Origin: Ruminococcus sp. | Lineage (GTDB): Bacteria > Bacillota_A > Clostridia > Oscillospirales > Acutalibacteraceae | Length of the DNA: 31,867 nucleotides | Direction of reading: 5' to 3' | NCBI GenBank assembly: GCA_017481395.1 | Contig: JAFUPE010000092.1 | Location: 1 to 31,867 of the forward strand | Shown here: piece after piece, positions 21,063 through 30,942 of the stretch | Numbering within the stretch: position 1 is the first letter of the stretch | Layout: each line of letters opens with the position of its first letter | Notes under the pieces: generated by a model | Seen by the model: the letters and a program-made list of their open reading frames with translations, nothing else | The model's database searches: none | Told to the model about the DNA's origin: nothing | Translations under genes and position numbers: made by a program

Positions 21063-21092
21063 ATTTATAAAATATATAAGGAGATGGATTTT

Positions 21093-21902
21093 ATGAATTG
21101 GGAACAAATCTGGACTACTCTTTTTGAGTTTGCCACATCTTGGGGTATCAAGCTTTTGGCGGCAATAATAATCTTAATTGTTGGCATAAAGCTTATTAAG
21201 GCACTTACAAAGTGGATTAAAAAGTCCCCTAAGCTTGACAAGCTTGACGAAAGCCTTCGCTCTTTCCTTGGCAGCTTTTCAAAAATAGCACTTTACATAA
21301 TTCTTGTTATTACTGTTGCTATGATTTTGGGCGTACCTGCAACCTCGTTTATTACAATTCTCGCTTCCTGCGGTGTTGCTATCGGTCTTGCTCTGCAGGG
21401 CTCGCTTTCAAACTTTGCAGGCGGAATTATGATTCTTTTATTCAAGCCCTTTAAGGTTGGCGATTATATCGAAGCAAGCGGCGAATCCGGCACAGTTGAG
21501 GAAATTTCTGTTGTTTATACTGTTCTTTTAACTACCGACAACAAGCGAATCACCATTCCCAACGGCACACTGACAAACTCTGTTATCGAGAATTACTCCT
21601 CAGAGAAAACAAGACGCGTAGACCTTACATTCAGTACAGCTTACGATGCAGATATCGAAAAGGTTAAGAAGGTACTTCTTGAGGTTGCCGAAAGCCACCC
21701 CAAGGCTCTTTCTGATCCTGCTCCCTTTGTAAGACTTTGTGAGCACTCTGACAGTGCCCTTACCTACACAGTACGCATCTGGTGTAAAACCGAGGATTAC
21801 TGGGATGTTAACTTCGACACCATCGAAAAAGTAAAGGAAGCCTTCGATAAAAACGGCATCGAAATCCCCTATCCTCAAATGGACGTGCACATTAATAAAT
21901 AA
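21093..21902 (+). CDS. mscS: Small-conductance mechanosensitive channel (MscS family)
   Basis: A 269-residue membrane channel that opens under membrane tension to release solutes. There are three N-terminal transmembrane helices (about 10-35, 55-80 and 85-112). The third carries the Ala/Gly-rich pore pattern ending GLALQGSLSNFAGGIMIL. A beta domain follows (FKVGDYIEASGESGTVEEI, ITIPNG) and an alpha/beta C-domain. The ATG at 21093 has AAGGAGATGG 6 nt upstream; the ATG at 21084 sits inside this RBS. The length matches the compact MscS group. A hairpin array starts at its stop codon. Confidence 0.93.
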   Translation: MNWEQIWTTLFEFATSWGIKLLAAIIILIVGIKLIKALTKWIKKSPKLDKLDESLRSFLGSFSKIALYIILVITVAMILGVPATSFITILASCGVAIGLALQGSLSNFAGGIMILLFKPFKVGDYIEASGESGTVEEISVVYTVLLTTDNKRITIPNGTLTNSVIENYSSEKTRRVDLTFSTAYDADIEKVKKVLLEVAESHPKALSDPAPFVRLCEHSDSALTYTVRIWCKTEDYWDVNFDTIEKVKEAFDKNGIEIPYPQMDVHINK

Positions 21903-22120
21903 TGAAATCTGACCCTGAGGTCAGATGAAATCCACCTCTTGGTGGATGAAGTGTCGCAAGCAATATGAAATATATTCTGTCGAAAATGTTAAGGGTCGCT
22001 AACGCTCCGAATTTATTATAAATTATATCAATCGCGACTTTAGCCGCCACCCACATATTTGCCGGTGGCAAATACTTCATACACATCGTGTACTTCATTT
22101 GCTGTGAAGCAAACTTCATT
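21902..22120. repeat. Hairpin-array element A
   Basis: The left half has linkers ATGAAAT (21902, 21925, 21965) and ATGAAGT (21946). Between them are hairpins ATCTGACC/GGTCAGAT (21907-21926) and ATCCACC/GGTGGAT (21930-21947). The core is CAATC at 22029, a GCGACT/AGCCGC hairpin, then CACCCACATATT ending at 22059. The right half has hairpins ATTTGCC/GGCAAAT (22057-22073), TACAC/GTGTA (22080-22092) and TTTGC/GCAAA (22098-22113), separated by ACTTCAT linkers (22074-22080, 22092-22098, 22113-22119), the reverse complement of the left linkers. It starts on the last base of the mscS stop. Some internal units (21953-22028) are degenerate. No ORF. Confidence 0.85.
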
Positions 22121-22157
22121 AAAATCCCGTCGTTAATAAAACGACGGGATTTTTTTA
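22121..22157. terminator. Bidirectional terminator between mscS and the symporter
   Basis: A 13-bp perfect stem AAAATCCCGTCGT (22121-22133) / ACGACGGGATTTT (22141-22153) with T-runs on both strands. It directly follows hairpin-array A and ends both convergent genes. Confidence 0.93.
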
Positions 22158-23483
22158 TTCAATCTCTTTATTAAGCATGTAAAGTGCTGTGGTATTGGGT
22201 ATAACCAAAAGTACGTTTACCGTATCGGCAATGCTCCACACAAGCTCTGAATTTATAGAGGCAGACACCAAAACTGCCGCCACCCACAGCACTCGGTAAA
22301 GCTTAACACCCTTAAACCCAAGCAAAAATTCAATGCACCTTTCCCCTATATACGACCAACCGATTATAGTTGAAAAGGCAAAAGTAATAAGTCCGAAGAA
22401 AAGCACCGGTCTGCCTATAAAAGGTAAGGTATCAAAGGCAAGGCTTGCCAGCATATCACCTGATGTTTTTTCGGCGGTTTCGGGATTTGCAAGCATAGCC
22501 GAAACCACAGCAACACCTGTCATCATACAAACCACAGCAGTATCCCAGAAAGCCGCTGTCATTGCGACATAAGAAAGATTTTTATGATTGTCACCCTCTG
22601 CCGCCGCTGAAACCACCGAGGCTGTACCTACGCCTGCTTCGTTGGAAAATAGTCCTCTTGCCATACCAAAGCGACAGGCTGTCATTATAGTAGAGCCTGC
22701 AAATCCACCTCCTACCGCCTGCGGCGAAAAAGCCGAGGTGATTATAAGCGATAAAGCCTTGCCTAAATAATGACGGTTTACAATTAAAATCCCCACACAG
22801 GCAAGCATATAAGCAACTGCCATAAACGGCACCAAAACCTGACACACACTGCCTACAGATTTAACTCCGCCCATTATTACCAAAGCGGTCAGAACTGCAC
22901 CTAAAACACCTACGGCTATAGTAACAAAGTTCAGCTCTACGGTACTCTGGGATTTTTCTATTTTAAAAAAGCCATGAACCGCGGTGCTCATGGCATTGCC
23001 CTGTAAAGCCGCACCTGTTATAAGTCCTCCCATTGATGCCGCCACAGCGAAAAACAAACCTAAGCCTTTTGCGTTCATTCCTCTTTGCATATAATACATT
23101 GGGCCGCCTACATACACGCCGTCTTTGTTTTTCACCCTGTATTTAAGAGAAAGAAATGACTCGCAATACATAGTAGCAATACCTAAAAGTCCCGTTATAA
23201 GGCACCAGAAAAGCGAGCCTGCTCCGCCCAAGGAAATCGCCGTACCTATGCCAATGATATTGCCTGTGCCCAACGTAGACGCAAGAGTAGTACAAAGAGT
23301 CTGAAAAGGACTTATATTTTTTCCCTCAGAACAGTTACCCCTAAAGGAAAGCTGAATTCCTTTGAAAAGCTTCTTCTGTACAAAGCCTGTTTTAAACGTC
23401 ATAAACAAATGGGTAAAAAGCAAAAAAGCTATCATCGGGAAACCCCAAAGATAGCTGTTAAGCGTGTCAAAAAAAGCAGTCAT
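22155..23483 (-). CDS. Sodium:alanine/glycine symporter (AGCS family)
   Basis: A 442-residue polytopic transporter. It has the family's N-terminal LNSYLWGFPM segment, the TLGTGNIIGIGTAI motif, the KNKDGVYVGGPMYYMQRGM segment, GMARGLFSNEAGVGTASVV (about 285-303), and late IGWSYIGERC. All are highly conserved in AGCS (AlsT/DagA-type) Na+- or H+-coupled amino-acid importers. Length is normal. A GAGGGTG lies just before the ATG. It is 44 nt downstream of citrate synthase on the same strand and probably cotranscribed. Confidence 0.93.
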   Translation of the reverse strand: MTAFFDTLNSYLWGFPMIAFLLFTHLFMTFKTGFVQKKLFKGIQLSFRGNCSEGKNISPFQTLCTTLASTLGTGNIIGIGTAISLGGAGSLFWCLITGLLGIATMYCESFLSLKYRVKNKDGVYVGGPMYYMQRGMNAKGLGLFFAVAASMGGLITGAALQGNAMSTAVHGFFKIEKSQSTVELNFVTIAVGVLGAVLTALVIMGGVKSVGSVCQVLVPFMAVAYMLACVGILIVNRHYLGKALSLIITSAFSPQAVGGGFAGSTIMTACRFGMARGLFSNEAGVGTASVVSAAAEGDNHKNLSYVAMTAAFWDTAVVCMMTGVAVVSAMLANPETAEKTSGDMLASLAFDTLPFIGRPVLFFGLITFAFSTIIGWSYIGERCIEFLLGFKGVKLYRVLWVAAVLVSASINSELVWSIADTVNVLLVIPNTTALYMLNKEIE

Positions 23484-26046: not shown

Positions 26047-26745
26047 ATGAAAGAAACTATATGCACAATACCTATTAACGATATTTTTAATCTTCACGAC
26101 GGATGTCCTTTCTGCCGTATGTACGAGATGCTTGAAAATCAGTACGCAACCTTTATTACAGGCTCGGCTATGATGGACCCCGAAACCCGTGTTGCGACTA
26201 ATAAAAAAGGCTTCTGCCCAAGACATTTTGAGAAGATTGTCGAGGTTGGCAAACGCCTTCCTGTTGCTCTTATTTTAGAAACACATCTCGATTTCATCCG
26301 AAATGAAATTCTGCCTAAAAAAGCAGGCAAGCCCGACAAAAAAACCTTAGCCAAAGCTCAGGAAATAACCGACAGCTGTTATATTTGTGACCGAATTCAG
26401 TTTGATATCCAGCATTTTCTGCAGACTGTATTTGTAGAATGGGCAAACTCGGCTGAATTTAAAGAGCTTTATAAAAATCAGGATTTTATCTGTATGAGGC
26501 ACTACACCGAGGTAATGAGGTATGCAAGCATAAAAATGCCCTCGAAGCACCTGTCGGCATTTCATGAGGACACCTTAAAGCTCGCACGCGGTTACCTTGA
26601 TACCCTTAAAAACGACACCACTCATTTTTGCCGAATGTTTGATTATCAGAACCGCGGTGCAGATTGGGGCAACAGCAAGGACGCTATTGAACGTGACATC
26701 AGGTTCCTTTCGGGCTACCTTGACAGAACGCCCGAAGATAAATGA
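26047..26745 (+). CDS. DUF6062-type protein with paired Cys motifs
   Basis: A 232-residue soluble protein of unknown function. The Cys/His layout is regular: CPFCRM (about 20-25), GFCPRHF (about 57-63), CYICDRI (about 115-121) and FICMRHY (about 150-156). This looks like two repeats of C-x-x-C followed by C-x-x-H, suggesting one or two metal sites. AGGAG lies about 8 nt before the ATG. TATAAT at 26021-26026 could be its -10, but the -35 is poor. Its stop codon lies inside the first linker of hairpin-array B. Confidence 0.75.
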   Translation: MKETICTIPINDIFNLHDGCPFCRMYEMLENQYATFITGSAMMDPETRVATNKKGFCPRHFEKIVEVGKRLPVALILETHLDFIRNEILPKKAGKPDKKTLAKAQEITDSCYICDRIQFDIQHFLQTVFVEWANSAEFKELYKNQDFICMRHYTEVMRYASIKMPSKHLSAFHEDTLKLARGYLDTLKNDTTHFCRMFDYQNRGADWGNSKDAIERDIRFLSGYLDRTPEDK

Positions 26746-26966
26746 AGTTTGCCCGAAGGCCAATGAAATATATCTGATGATATATAAAATATTGTAAACA
26801 ATATGAAGTGTTTGCTCTGCAAACATTATGAGCCACCAGCTCAGCATTTAATAGTTGTTCCAATCGCACGCATAGCGTGCCACCGACATATTCGCTTTTG
26901 CGAATACTTCATATCGAAGATACTTCATACGCTATACGTACTTCATATTCCAAAGGAATATTTCAT
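26742..26966. repeat. Hairpin-array element B
   Basis: The clearest of the three arrays. The left half has linkers ATGAAGT (26742), ATGAAAT (26763), a degenerate copy (26784) and ATGAAGT (26803). Between or beside them are hairpins TTTGCC/GGCCAA, ATATATC/GATATAT, ATATTG/CAATAT, TGTTTGC/GCAAACA and TGAGC/GCTCA. The core is CAATC (26861), perfect hairpin GCACGC/GCGTGC (26866-26880), then CACCGACATATT (26881-26892). The right half has hairpins TATTCGC/GCGAATA, TATC/GATA, TACG/CGTA and ATATTCC/GGAATAT, separated by TACTTCAT (26905, 26921, 26939) and closed by ATTTCAT (26960). Units repeat every 16-21 nt. It overlaps the upstream stop codon. No ORF. Confidence 0.9.
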
Positions 26967-26984
26967 TCATATTACCTATTACTT

Positions 26985-27020: not shown

Positions 27021-27899
27021 TTATATTCTGCGGATTTCAGAAATTGAAGGTACGTCGTGGTACTGCTTGATATACTCGCTTAAGGTGCAGTTGTAAACGC
27101 TCTTGAAAGCGGCAATAAACGCCTTAACACTGGGAAAGCCGTTTTCAAGTGCTGCCCTTGTTTCAGAAATACCTGTAGTCTGAATATCTCTTAAAGCATT
27201 TTCAAGTCTTATGAGATTCAGATACTGCTTAAAAGTCTTGCGGGTATTCTGCTTGAAATAACGCGAAAAATATGTAGGTGTAAGACCAACGTGCGACGCA
27301 ATCTCGTCTAAGGTAATACGCTCCTTAAAATTAAGCTTTATATAATCTATTGCTTTTTTGGCGTACTCAAGTTCTTCGTGCTCGGGTATAGTCTGGGTAC
27401 GAGTTCGTTCCTCCTTACAGGAAACGAAAAGATGCACTAAAATCTGAGCCATAGAGGTAGAAATCTTAAGGTCGGAAAACTCGGTCTGAGCCTGAGTTTC
27501 CTCCACAATTTCCTTCAAGAGCTTTGTAATCTCAGCCTTGGCGGCAACGTTTTTGTTAACGTCAAAGCTGTAGGATTCGAAATCCTCGAAATACGCCTTG
27601 ATATAATTGTACGAAAACTGTACCACAAGATACTTAACGTTTTCCTGTGGAATCTTACCGCAGGTCTGGTGAATATCGTCATTGTTAATAACGATAAAAT
27701 CGCCGTCGGTAAGGTCGTTATCCACGCCGTTAATCATAACCCAGAAGTTACCCTTGATAATATAGATGACTTCTATATTTTTGTGCCAATGCTTGTTGGT
27801 GTAGCACTCCTGTCCGGGCTTATCAAAAAGTATAACTTTACCGGGTAAATTATCATCGGCAGATATTATTTCATACTTATAACGATAATTCTTAGGCAT
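27021..27899 (-). CDS. AraC-family transcriptional regulator with cupin sensor
   Basis: A 292-residue protein. The N-terminal cupin (about 15-105, HWHKNIEVIYIIKG and DGDFIVINNDDIHQ) is the ligand-sensing part, typically for sugars. The C-terminal double HTH is at about 185-285 (ITLDEIASHVGLTPTYFSRYFKQ and the second helix region FPSVKAFIAAFKSVYNCTL). AAAGGAGG lies before the ATG. It is divergent from the MBL lipoprotein across 184 nt. No sugar transporter or catabolic gene is adjacent, so the target is unknown. Confidence 0.9.
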   Translation of the reverse strand: MPKNYRYKYEIISADDNLPGKVILFDKPGQECYTNKHWHKNIEVIYIIKGNFWVMINGVDNDLTDGDFIVINNDDIHQTCGKIPQENVKYLVVQFSYNYIKAYFEDFESYSFDVNKNVAAKAEITKLLKEIVEETQAQTEFSDLKISTSMAQILVHLFVSCKEERTRTQTIPEHEELEYAKKAIDYIKLNFKERITLDEIASHVGLTPTYFSRYFKQNTRKTFKQYLNLIRLENALRDIQTTGISETRAALENGFPSVKAFIAAFKSVYNCTLSEYIKQYHDVPSISEIRRI

Positions 27900-28083: not shown

Positions 28084-29169
28084 TTGAAAAAGAAGCTTAA
28101 ATTTTTAATATTGTCATTTTTTATCCTTATATTTTTTATAATAAGCGGATGTGAGCTTCCCAGTGTTTTGTCAGATAATATATCTGCAAACAATGCAGAG
28201 CTTACAATTTCCTTTATTGACGTAGGGCAGGGCGATGCCACACTGATTGAATGCGATAATGAAGCAATGCTGATTGATGCAGGACTCTATTCTGAGCGAC
28301 AAGCGGTTACCTCGTACATATACAAAAGGGGCATAAGAAGCCTTGATTACTGCGTTGCCACCCATCCTCACGCAGACCATATCGGCGGTATGAGCGATGT
28401 AATTTACAGCCTTGATGTCGATACTCTTGTATATCCCCTTTGTGATACCGAGTCAAGCTCGTGGAATTACGTCTTAGATGCCTGCGACGAGACAGGGGTT
28501 TCTTACTTTAACCCCGAGCCTCTTGACACCATTAAATTAGGCAAGGCAACTATAACCTTTCTTTCTCCCGAAAGAAACGCCGTATACGACGACCTTAACA
28601 ACTATTCATTGGTGCTTAAGCTTGAGTATGAAAATGTTTCCTTTTTATTTACAGGCGACGCCGAAAAGCAAGTCGAAACTAAACTATTGGAAACGCACTT
28701 CGATTTAAGTGCAGATGTACTTAAATGCGGTCACCACGGAAGCTCAACCAGCTCCTCTGAAGCTTTTATTAATGCCGTAAATCCTGCGGCAGCAGTTATT
28801 TCCTGCGGTATAGATAACGAATATGGTCATCCTCACCGCGAAACTTTAAACACCCTTAATGACCGCGGAATTAAAATTTACCGCACCGATATGAGTTCTA
28901 CCATTGTGGCACTTTCTGACGGCGAGACCATCACCTTTTGCTCCGGCGACGAGGTTTTAGGCGAGGTTGCCGTCAACACACAATCAGAGACTCAATCTGC
29001 TTCAAGTGAAGCTGCATATAATTATGTAGGCAACAAAAACAGCAAGGTTTTTCACTCTCTAAATTGCTCCTCAGTAGAAAACACTAAAGAAAAAAACAAG
29101 GTGTATTTCAACACCCGAGAAGACGCGGCAGACAATGGCTACAGCCCTTGCAAAGCCTGCAATCCTTAA
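28084..29169 (+). CDS. ComEC-type metallo-beta-lactamase-fold lipoprotein with Ada-like C-terminal domain
   Basis: A 361-residue protein starting with TTG at 28084. The signal ends in lipobox ISGC (Cys23). The MBL domain (about 38-300) has FIDVGQGDA, the metal site THPHADH (H94, H96, D98, H99), FTGDAE and KCGHHGSS, the pattern of the ComEC/Rec2 C-terminal hydrolase and related secreted nucleases or phosphodiesterases. After a Ser/Gln linker, the last 45 residues (NYVGNKNSKVFHSLNCSSV...YSPCKACNP) match the Ada-like metal-binding fold found at the ends of secreted nucleases. This supports an extracellular nucleic-acid or phosphoester substrate, but that is inference. The stop is followed after 4 nt by the FkbM gene. 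Confidence 0.85.
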   Translation: MKKKLKFLILSFFILIFFIISGCELPSVLSDNISANNAELTISFIDVGQGDATLIECDNEAMLIDAGLYSERQAVTSYIYKRGIRSLDYCVATHPHADHIGGMSDVIYSLDVDTLVYPLCDTESSSWNYVLDACDETGVSYFNPEPLDTIKLGKATITFLSPERNAVYDDLNNYSLVLKLEYENVSFLFTGDAEKQVETKLLETHFDLSADVLKCGHHGSSTSSSEAFINAVNPAAAVISCGIDNEYGHPHRETLNTLNDRGIKIYRTDMSSTIVALSDGETITFCSGDEVLGEVAVNTQSETQSASSEAAYNYVGNKNSKVFHSLNCSSVENTKEKNKVYFNTREDAADNGYSPCKACNP

Positions 29170-29173
29170 TGCT

Positions 29174-30223
29174 ATGAATATTACAGAAAAACTCCTTTCC
29201 TATACATCAGTATGGGAAAAGCTTAAAAACGAAAAGTCCCCCATTGTGCTTTACGGCACAGGTAACGGTGCTGATACTGTCCTTGACATTTTTGAAAGCC
29301 TTAATATAAAAGCAAGTGCAATTTGTGCCAGCGACGGCTTTGTACGCAAACGCATCTTCCGAGGATTTGAGGTTATAAGCATTAGCGACGCTAAAGAAAG
29401 GTTTGAAAATCCTCTTTTTTGCCTCAGCTTTGCATCAAGCATCAATGACGTTATGGAAAACATAAAGTCCCTTAACCCATTGGTACCTGTTGTGCCTGTT
29501 TTCGGCAAAGATTACATAGACAGAGATTTTATTGTCGGCAATCGTGAGAAAATTGACTCTGCCTACAACCTGCTTTCTGACGATAAAAGCAAAGAAGTTT
29601 TCGAAAACATACTTACTTTTGAATTTACAGGTGAGCTTTCTTATCTTATAAAAACCGAAAGCACAAGAGAAGAAGCCTTGTGTAAGCTTTTAAAGCTTAC
29701 AGATAAAGAGCACTACGCCGACCTTGGAGCATACCGCGGTGACACCGTTGAAGAGCTTGTGAATCTTTGCGGTGGTTTTGAAAAAGCCTATGCCTTTGAG
29801 CCTGACAAAAAGACCTTTTTGAAGCTTAAAGAAAACACAAAGGATTTCGAAAACCTGACTCTTTTCCCATATGCTCTATGGAGTGAGAATACCACCCTTA
29901 ATTTTTCGGGCGGTGGCGGCAGGCAAAGTGCTTTAAGTAATGAGGGCTATGAGGTAAAGGCTGTTGCACTTGACAATATTTTAGGCGATAAAAAAATCAC
30001 CTATATCAAGGCAGATGTGGAGGGTGCCGAGAAGGAAGCCTTAGAGGGTATGAGCAGGATTTTAAAGGAACAGAAACCGAAATTATGTATAAGTGCATAC
30101 CACAGTAGTGCCGACATTTTCGAGCTTATTCTGCAAATCCACAGTATCAATCCCGATTACAAAATAAGCCTCAGACATCATCCATACATACCCGCATGGG
30201 ATACGAACTTGTATTGTATGTAG
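29174..30223 (+). CDS. FkbM-family SAM-dependent methyltransferase with N-terminal Rossmann-like domain
   Basis: A 349-residue protein. ATG 29174 is chosen because it avoids a 35-nt overlap with the upstream gene; ATG 29135 is the alternative. Neither has a good RBS, so coupling to the upstream stop is likely. An N-terminal part (about 25-110, IVLYGTGNGADTVLDIF) resembles the nucleotide-binding domain of PglD-like or sugar-modifying proteins. The C-terminal part (about 180-345) is FkbM: YADLGAYRGDT (SAM loop), FEPDKKTF, YIKADVEGAEKEAL, and LCISAYH. It is probably an O-methyltransferase on a sugar or polyketide-like substrate; none is identified nearby. Its stop codon TAG forms the left edge of hairpin-array C. 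Confidence 0.85.
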   Translation: MNITEKLLSYTSVWEKLKNEKSPIVLYGTGNGADTVLDIFESLNIKASAICASDGFVRKRIFRGFEVISISDAKERFENPLFCLSFASSINDVMENIKSLNPLVPVVPVFGKDYIDRDFIVGNREKIDSAYNLLSDDKSKEVFENILTFEFTGELSYLIKTESTREEALCKLLKLTDKEHYADLGAYRGDTVEELVNLCGGFEKAYAFEPDKKTFLKLKENTKDFENLTLFPYALWSENTTLNFSGGGGRQSALSNEGYEVKAVALDNILGDKKITYIKADVEGAEKEALEGMSRILKEQKPKLCISAYHSSADIFELILQIHSINPDYKISLRHHPYIPAWDTNLYCM

Positions 30224-30410
30224 GCGGCTTTGCCGCCTGCGATATAAATCCTGTCAGGATTTGCGATATACATTCTGTGTGATATAACTTTCGTTGTGAT
30301 TTGCACCTTCGGTACAAGGGGATTTATATGAAATCGCAACCGAACCCAGTAAGGTTATATCGCATTTGTTAAACAAATATATCGCATGAGCAATAAGCTC
30401 ATATATCGCA
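30222..30410. repeat. Hairpin-array element C (different linker)
   Basis: Same design as arrays A and B but with linker TGCGATATA on the left (30238, 30262, and a TGTGATATA variant at 30278) and its exact reverse complement TATATCGCA on the right (30356, 30378, 30402). Hairpins: AGGCGGC/GCCGCCT (30222-30238), AAATCCT/AGGATTT (30246-30262), AAC/GTT (30286-30295) and TGCACC/GGTACA (30302-30316) on the left; ATTTGT/ACAAAT (30364-30378) and ATGAGC/GCTCAT (30386-30402) on the right. The middle contains AAATCGC (30332) and AACC/GGTT arms. The first hairpin begins inside the FkbM stop codon. Confidence 0.87.
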
Positions 30411-30434: not shown

Positions 30435-30752
30435 CTATGCCATCAGCTCTGCACCAAGCAAGGTGTAGAGCTCTGATTTTTTCAGCAGTCCTGTCGCTTT
30501 ATTAAGCGGCTTGCCGTCCTCAAAAACTATAATTGTAGGCACCGCAGAAATACCGAAGGCAGTCTTGAGGCTCGGCTCTTTGTCAATATCAACCGTGTAA
30601 AATTGTGTTAAGCCAAAGTCACGTTCGGCTTTTTCCACCATAAGCTTCATGCTTCTGCAAAAACCGCACCAAGGTGCAGTAAAAAGCACCGCACACCGCT
30701 TGTCTTCGAAAAAAACCTTTTCTCTAAAGTCTTCTGTATTCAAAATTTCCAT
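30435..30752 (-). CDS. Thioredoxin-like protein
   Basis: A 105-residue cytosolic thioredoxin fold with active site WCGFC (28-32) and the cis-Pro loop SAVPTII (about 73). The centre is GF rather than the GP of housekeeping TrxA. The start at 30752 is chosen because AAGGTGA lies 5 nt upstream; a longer N-terminus from 30791 would overlap the upstream gene. It is second in a two-gene operon behind the YtxH-like peptide (10-nt gap). Confidence 0.9.
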   Translation of the reverse strand: MEILNTEDFREKVFFEDKRCAVLFTAPWCGFCRSMKLMVEKAERDFGLTQFYTVDIDKEPSLKTAFGISAVPTIIVFEDGKPLNKATGLLKKSELYTLLGAELMA

Positions 30753-30762
30753 ATTTATCACC

Positions 30763-30942
30763 TTATTTAAACATATACCCTGCAGTATCAAGCATATTGC
30801 TCATAGATTTAAGGGCTTTGCCTGCTTTTTTCTTCATATTCTTTTTACTGCCCTTGTCCATCATCTTAGAGCCGACCACACCTGCGGCAACACCTGTCAT
30901 AACGCCAACCGCCATACCTTTTACAATGGTCATTGCTTTCAT
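30763..30942 (-). CDS. YtxH-like small membrane peptide
   Basis: A 59-residue protein. ATG 30942 is chosen for GGGAGGTGA 5 nt upstream, over ATG 30957. One Gly/Ala/Val-rich helix (IVKGMAVGVMTGVAAGVVG) is followed by a strongly basic tail (KGSKKNMKKKAGKALKSM). This is the layout of YtxH-type stress-related membrane peptides. It is in an operon with the thioredoxin-like gene. Function unknown. Confidence 0.65.
   Translation of the reverse strand: MKAMTIVKGMAVGVMTGVAAGVVGSKMMDKGSKKNMKKKAGKALKSMSNMLDTAGYMFK

Follow-up and report, generated by a model that had tools for sequence, protein, structure and literature searches.

What kind of element is a run of short hairpins, framed by mirrored linkers, that lies between two convergent genes? 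The question is raised by positions 26742-26966 of a 31,867-nt stretch of Ruminococcus sp. DNA, which was analysed over its whole length and is called the window here. This array (element B) and its surroundings are as follows.

26742-26966, no strand assigned: element B, hairpin array, with left linkers ATGAART at 26742, 26763 and 26803 and right linkers AYTTCAT at 26906, 26922, 26940 and 26960
26810-26899, minus strand (orientation assigned by eye, via comparison with L087): core of B, hairpin GCACGC/GCGTGC plus a CACC.ACATAT block common to element A and to copies in the related genome G004
26047-26745, plus strand: DUF6062 gene, left neighbour of B, whose stop codon overlaps the first B linker
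27021-27899, minus strand: AraC-type regulator gene, right neighbour of B, convergent

The presence of a hairpin array at B is confirmed. The initial annotation had counted ten or more hairpins, and a single-strand DNA fold of 26738-26972 gives ten (z -5.96; 0/200 shuffles as stable). The RNA fold of the same stretch has a z of -4.92, and none of 200 shuffles folds as well. A stem scan of 26742-26966 found nine non-overlapping perfect stems of at least 4 bp and seven of at least 5 bp. The nine together comprise 53 bp, whereas shuffles average 15.5 bp and never exceed 38 (0/500 reach 53). B is more structured than shuffled sequence in both kinds of comparison. The linker words read earlier were both located, ATGAART in the left half and AYTTCAT in the right half, and ATGAART-gap-ATGAART occurs nine times on the two strands of the window versus 0.09 expected. 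The regular unit of about 16-21 nt that had been described holds for the right half, where linkers are spaced by 16, 18 and 20 nt; the left half is less regular, since exact linkers there are spaced by 21 and 40 nt. The statement that each hairpin is set off by a linker was too strong, because the middle of B contains hairpins that no linker sets off.

Two further arrays were located in the window.

21902-22119, no strand assigned: element A, hairpin array, linker as in B; left linkers at 21902, 21925, 21946 and 21965, right linkers at 22074, 22092 and 22113
21084-21902, plus strand: MscS-type channel gene, left neighbour of A
22155-23483, minus strand: sodium:alanine symporter gene, right neighbour of A, convergent
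30239-30409, no strand assigned: element C, hairpin array; left linkers GCGATAT at 30239 and 30263 and GTGATAT at 30279, right linkers ATATCGC at 30357, 30379 and 30403
29135-30223, plus strand: FkbM-type methyltransferase gene, left neighbour of C
30435-30791, minus strand: thioredoxin-like gene, right neighbour of C, convergent

Ordered hairpins, mirrored linkers and a core are found in A, B and C alike, and a convergent gene pair flanks each of them (3/3). A and B have a common core, by eye CAATCGC..GCCACC.ACATATT. When stem content was compared per 225-nt stretch across the window, A and B ranked highest (45-46 bp) and C came next (36 bp), with a median of 5 bp. In the minimum-energy RNA fold of C (z -5.84), the left linkers pair with the right ones and hairpins protrude at the joints. 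No rRNA gene lies around A, B or C, each of which sits between protein genes, and no Rfam family reaches its gathering score anywhere in the window. A literature search, which excluded preprints and mostly did not reach subscription papers, found no published description of this element.

For its interpretation of B the initial annotation had named two tests, further copies in related genomes and stems that vary with pairing kept. Copies were found: related Oscillospiraceae genomes, most of the compared ones being metagenome bins, contain dozens of them. With the DUF6062 neighbour of B as query, 80 loci were kept, mostly from metagenome-assembled Oscillospiraceae, Ruminococcus and other Clostridia. 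At the orthologous DUF6062-AraC gap, three of the four closest loci have no such array, and in the fourth, L004, there is one whose linker is AATACCACT; neither exact element ends nor a target duplication were found at this gap, where the relatives are too diverged to fix them. The genome of L004 (G004) has 26 ACTTCAT-gap-ACTTCAT matches, which form eleven arrays. ACTTCAC arrays stand at six loci there, and nine arrays are of the ATACCACT type, so several linker families coexist within one genome. Eight of the ATACCACT arrays are near-identical by eye and stand at different places, for which reason this family seems to have spread recently. In relatives, 21 arrays could be located wholly outside reading frames, and 11 of these lie between convergent genes.

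Stem variation was examined in two sets of copies. The constant linker part of array copies is TGAAG/CTTCA, nearly all units are palindromes closed by T...A, and hairpin order and closing pairs are kept across copies and genomes. Eight half-arrays from the window and G004 have the same four hairpins and align hairpin by hairpin. In an arm-swap test on these, whose statistics ignore kinship among copies, 48/48 cells of hairpin 4 are paired, against an arm-swapped mean of 0.78 and a largest value of 0.96 in 2000 swaps. Hairpin 2 has 31/31 cells paired (arm-swapped mean 0.87, largest 1.00), hairpin 3 has 38/40 (0.90, 0.95) and hairpin 1 has 46/48 (0.94, 0.96), so that only hairpin 4 beats every swap. 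The same test was applied to 10 of 17 extracted ACTTCAC sequences, those sharing hairpin order (from G004, G010 and G102). Here H6 is paired in 50/50 cells with seven both-side changes (swapped mean 0.81; 0/3000 reach), and H2 in 37/40 (swapped 0.77, p = 0.0003). Support is weaker for H1 (p = 0.022) and H5 (p = 0.025), and H3 and H7 have too little variation for the swap test. Stems therefore vary with pairing kept, as hairpin 4 and H6 of the sister family demonstrate, and the earlier interpretation of B is supported. That interpretation had left a choice between selection for structure and a process that writes palindromes; its premise of stem variation with pairing stands, and the data separate the two only partly. 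In a strand test the array stems have 25 G-U versus 10 A-C mismatches and the control 24 versus 14, a weak result. By eye, the core contains the complement of an arm of the outermost left hairpin, for example TTTTATTCGCC...GGCGAATAAAA, both in elements with the IVP gene described below (such as L152, L161 and L239) and in gene-less L339-L344. Because of this complement, forming the first hairpin could preclude a long-range stem to the core and vice versa, which would make a possible switch.

Some arrays of relatives are joined to a gene. The arrays of G023, G027 and G032 and one of G004 run almost up to the start codon of a small gene with the Pfam domain 23S_rRNA_IVP. Its family (PF05635/TIGR02436) is that of the IVP/S23p four-helix-bundle proteins, and among 148 relatives of G004, 89 have PF05635 (E 1e-10). 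In the window an IVP gene is absent, the best E among 668 frame segments being 0.3. In the initial annotation's text on B the kept hairpin order and a second linker type are absent, and the partner protein was invisible from the sequence alone.

At least 137 distinct IVP genes are among the matches listed, and 134 of them have at least 200 nt upstream; the sample includes 80 regions beyond the loci first matched. Here and in the tests below, linker words and class thresholds were chosen with the sequences already in view. Of the upstream regions, 47/134 reach a mirrored heptamer score of at least 4, versus 1/134 shuffles and 2/54 control stretches. The upstream regions have 3.1 hairpins per 300 nt versus 1.2 in shuffles. 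A protein tree was made from 130 of the 137 genes (protein of 100-160 aa, at least 200 nt upstream; 121 columns, with 56 of 124 inner branches open). An array or at least four hairpins was found in 45 rows of this tree, 43 of which fall into one clade of 53 (SH-aLRT 99); the other two are among the 77 rows outside it. Five of the ten array-clade rows scored as having none possess a mirrored heptamer scoring 7 or 8. Arrays are thus associated with one IVP clade, and the link between IVP and the array is well supported. A tRNA or tmRNA gene lies upstream of 26/51 array-clade elements and ends 172-456 nt before the IVP start; outside the clade, 13/76 IVPs have one within 650 nt. The tRNA or tmRNA strand is the IVP strand in 39/39 cases.

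Outside the array clade, many IVP genes are flanked by a short tandem repeat and, on the opposite side, by the reverse complement of that repeat, such as CACTAACCACT or AATTACGCATTACG (L145, L146, L149, L157, L163, L164 and others). Judging from these pairs, free-standing IVP genes in general may be marked by mirrored repeats. The best solved relative of IVP is 2RLD (E 5.9e-21), which has five identical chains, and S23p of Xanthomonas is reported as a homopentamer (PMC4990558). S23p proteins are described as being without known function in the 2016 IVS study (PMC4990558), and the domain as functionally uncharacterised in a 2024 study (PMC11270868).

The linkers vary by IVP subclade (CTTCA, TTTCA, CATCA, ATAxCA, ATATAAC, TTTAGC, AATTCA and others). 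On the tree, linker type changes 11 times among 33 labelled rows versus a shuffled mean of 19.8 (0/200 as low), a test in which L162, L246 and L253 were labelled TTTCA and by eye have ATATAAC or ATAxCAC. Common descent of whole elements accounts for part of this match between linker and protein. When the left and right halves were scored independently, they had the same linker type in 35/41 elements, against a permuted mean of 9.1 and a largest value of 19 in 5000 permutations. Such agreement is predicted by pairing of the two halves, or by one reader of both. In folds of 28 elements 60/88 left linkers pair with right ones, as complementary words tend to do anyway. Right linkers ATATCGC, as in C, were also seen by eye in an IVP element of G134 (L232).

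ACTTCAY triple arrays were found in 19/148 genomes, two of which (G026 and G089) were set aside on reading the matches, as being without palindromes or a plain tandem repeat. PF05635 is present in 16 of the remaining 17 versus 73/131 others (Fisher p = 0.0027); G102 has ACTTCAY arrays and no PF05635 at 1e-10. Among the matches listed, an IVP with a CTTCA-type linker occurs in at least nine of the 17 (G004, G005, G010, G020, G023, G027, G032, G052 and G144), and in G027 and G032 the ACTTCAY matches are the IVP's own array. No CTTCA-linker IVP is among the matches listed for G007, G030, G057, G064, G065, G102, G120 and G148. It is suggested that gene-less copies depend on an IVP with the matching linker.

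What, then, are A, B and C? With moderate confidence we regard them as gene-less (non-autonomous) copies of small, apparently mobile IVP elements. A full element would consist of ordered left hairpins, a core, ordered right hairpins and then the IVP/S23p gene. It would act as folded RNA (or single-stranded DNA), in which the left linkers pair with the right ones into a rod with the hairpins at its joints. The IVP ring may recognise this rod via the linkers, and IVP from a full copy may aid gene-less copies in trans, in the way that gene-less REP copies are thought to depend on RAYT (PMC3733652). We infer that the arrays are transcribed and that a step exists which moves the DNA. Copies would settle at the 3' ends of genes and tRNAs, where extra structured RNA would do little harm, and the stem sequence would drift with the linkers staying, because the stems need only pair. 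The array clade and its subclade-linked linkers make the array a candidate substrate for IVP, so that the function of this protein becomes directly testable. Such an account would also name and explain hairpin repeats that recur in gut Clostridia.

Among the closest known systems is the 23S rRNA IVS, in which the same protein family (PF05635, TIGR02436) is encoded by a frame inside structured RNA; the IVS is inserted in an rRNA gene, and RNase III cuts it out of the transcript. The full-length relatives of the arrays likewise encode IVP/S23p, which the window copies A, B and C lack. In Coxiella, the IVS is bounded by inverted repeats, and tandem heptamers precede the S23p frame (PMC4990558). 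The array elements differ from the IVS in that they lie between genes or after tRNAs and not in rRNA, and in having ordered hairpins, mirrored linkers and many gene-less copies. PF05635 resembles Avd of diversity-generating retroelements in sequence and structure (PMC10053308). However, no reverse transcriptase or variable repeat was noticed by eye beside the array elements. Integron attC sites keep their structure while their sequence varies, and they are recognised as a folded single strand. The arrays too keep structure while sequence varies, but no integrase or cassettes were noticed with them, and their linkers and fixed hairpin order are different.

The arrays might instead be host regulatory RNA without mobility of its own, which would stabilise 3' UTRs, terminate transcription in both directions or, as a leader, control the translation of IVP. 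The convergent genes around all three window copies and around 11 of the 21 placeable arrays of relatives fit this reading, as does the array that ends just before the IVP start codon. However, terminator-like hairpins stand beside the arrays as separate structures (by eye), and three observations look like spread: presence and absence at the one orthologous DUF6062-AraC gap, the many copies with the same linker per genome, and the near-identical copies at different places. Host regulatory RNA is therefore a rather unlikely explanation of the arrays.

The reading as IVP elements can also be extended. The elements might be RNA-templated: the IVP ring, as a relative of Avd, would package the rod-shaped array RNA and, together with a borrowed reverse transcriptase, deliver it to positions downstream of tRNAs and genes. 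A, B and C, being gene-less, would then be SINE-like parasites, each tied by its linker to one IVP subclade, and the 23S rRNA IVS would be the special case in which the insertion site was an rRNA helix. We consider this extended scheme unlikely.

Another reading is purely mutational: template switching or quasi-palindrome correction between recombining linkers would create the palindromes and hold them perfect, without selection on structure. Quasi-palindrome correction yields perfect palindromes with drifting sequence, and the drifting perfect palindromes of the arrays fit such correction. Long direct repeats flank IVP in 4/41 array-class elements (94, 73, 37 and 26 nt) and could feed recombination. 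However, correction alone predicts neither the hairpin order and closing pairs that are kept between copies and genomes, nor the joint change of left and right linkers, nor their match to the protein tree, and this process is very unlikely to account for the arrays. In the elements with direct repeats, part of the left half, or a terminator-like hairpin before it, is repeated directly after IVP (L267, L241, L150 and L262; by eye also L345 of G010). These repeats represent either terminal redundancy or a duplicated target. Repeats of at least 26 nt in 4/41 elements and in the one G010 element seen by eye are not enough to accept target duplication.

With REP/BIME repeats the arrays share small palindromes, a constant tag, paired opposite orientation and a position mostly downstream of genes. 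REPs are described as tagged palindromes in opposite orientations that lie downstream of genes or between convergent genes, the tag beside the palindrome being GTAG or CGTC (PMC3733652). In contrast, the array tag is TGAAG/CTTCA or another linker, it stands between all units, and the partner protein is IVP and not Y1. REPs share their stem sequence, whereas array stems differ at every unit. A REP/BIME-like nature of the arrays, in which a Y1 transposase (RAYT or IS200/IS605) would move them by reading a hairpin with an adjoining short single-stranded tag, here the linker, is highly improbable, since Y1 genes were present in six of ten relatives tested but 0/8 Y1 loci (1.9-3.4 kb each) had tandem linkers of the four patterns tried, which IVP genes do have; Y1 was rejected as the array partner.

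Two minor observations were made beside the arrays. A second repeat module, by eye GTTAGCCACGGTGGGCARTTCC.CC...TCAACGG.GG, occurs several times in a row beside many arrays (L330-L338, L104 and L099; G004). In the window, a single frame at 28084-29169 fuses a metallo-beta-lactamase-fold domain with an Ada-type metal-binding domain.
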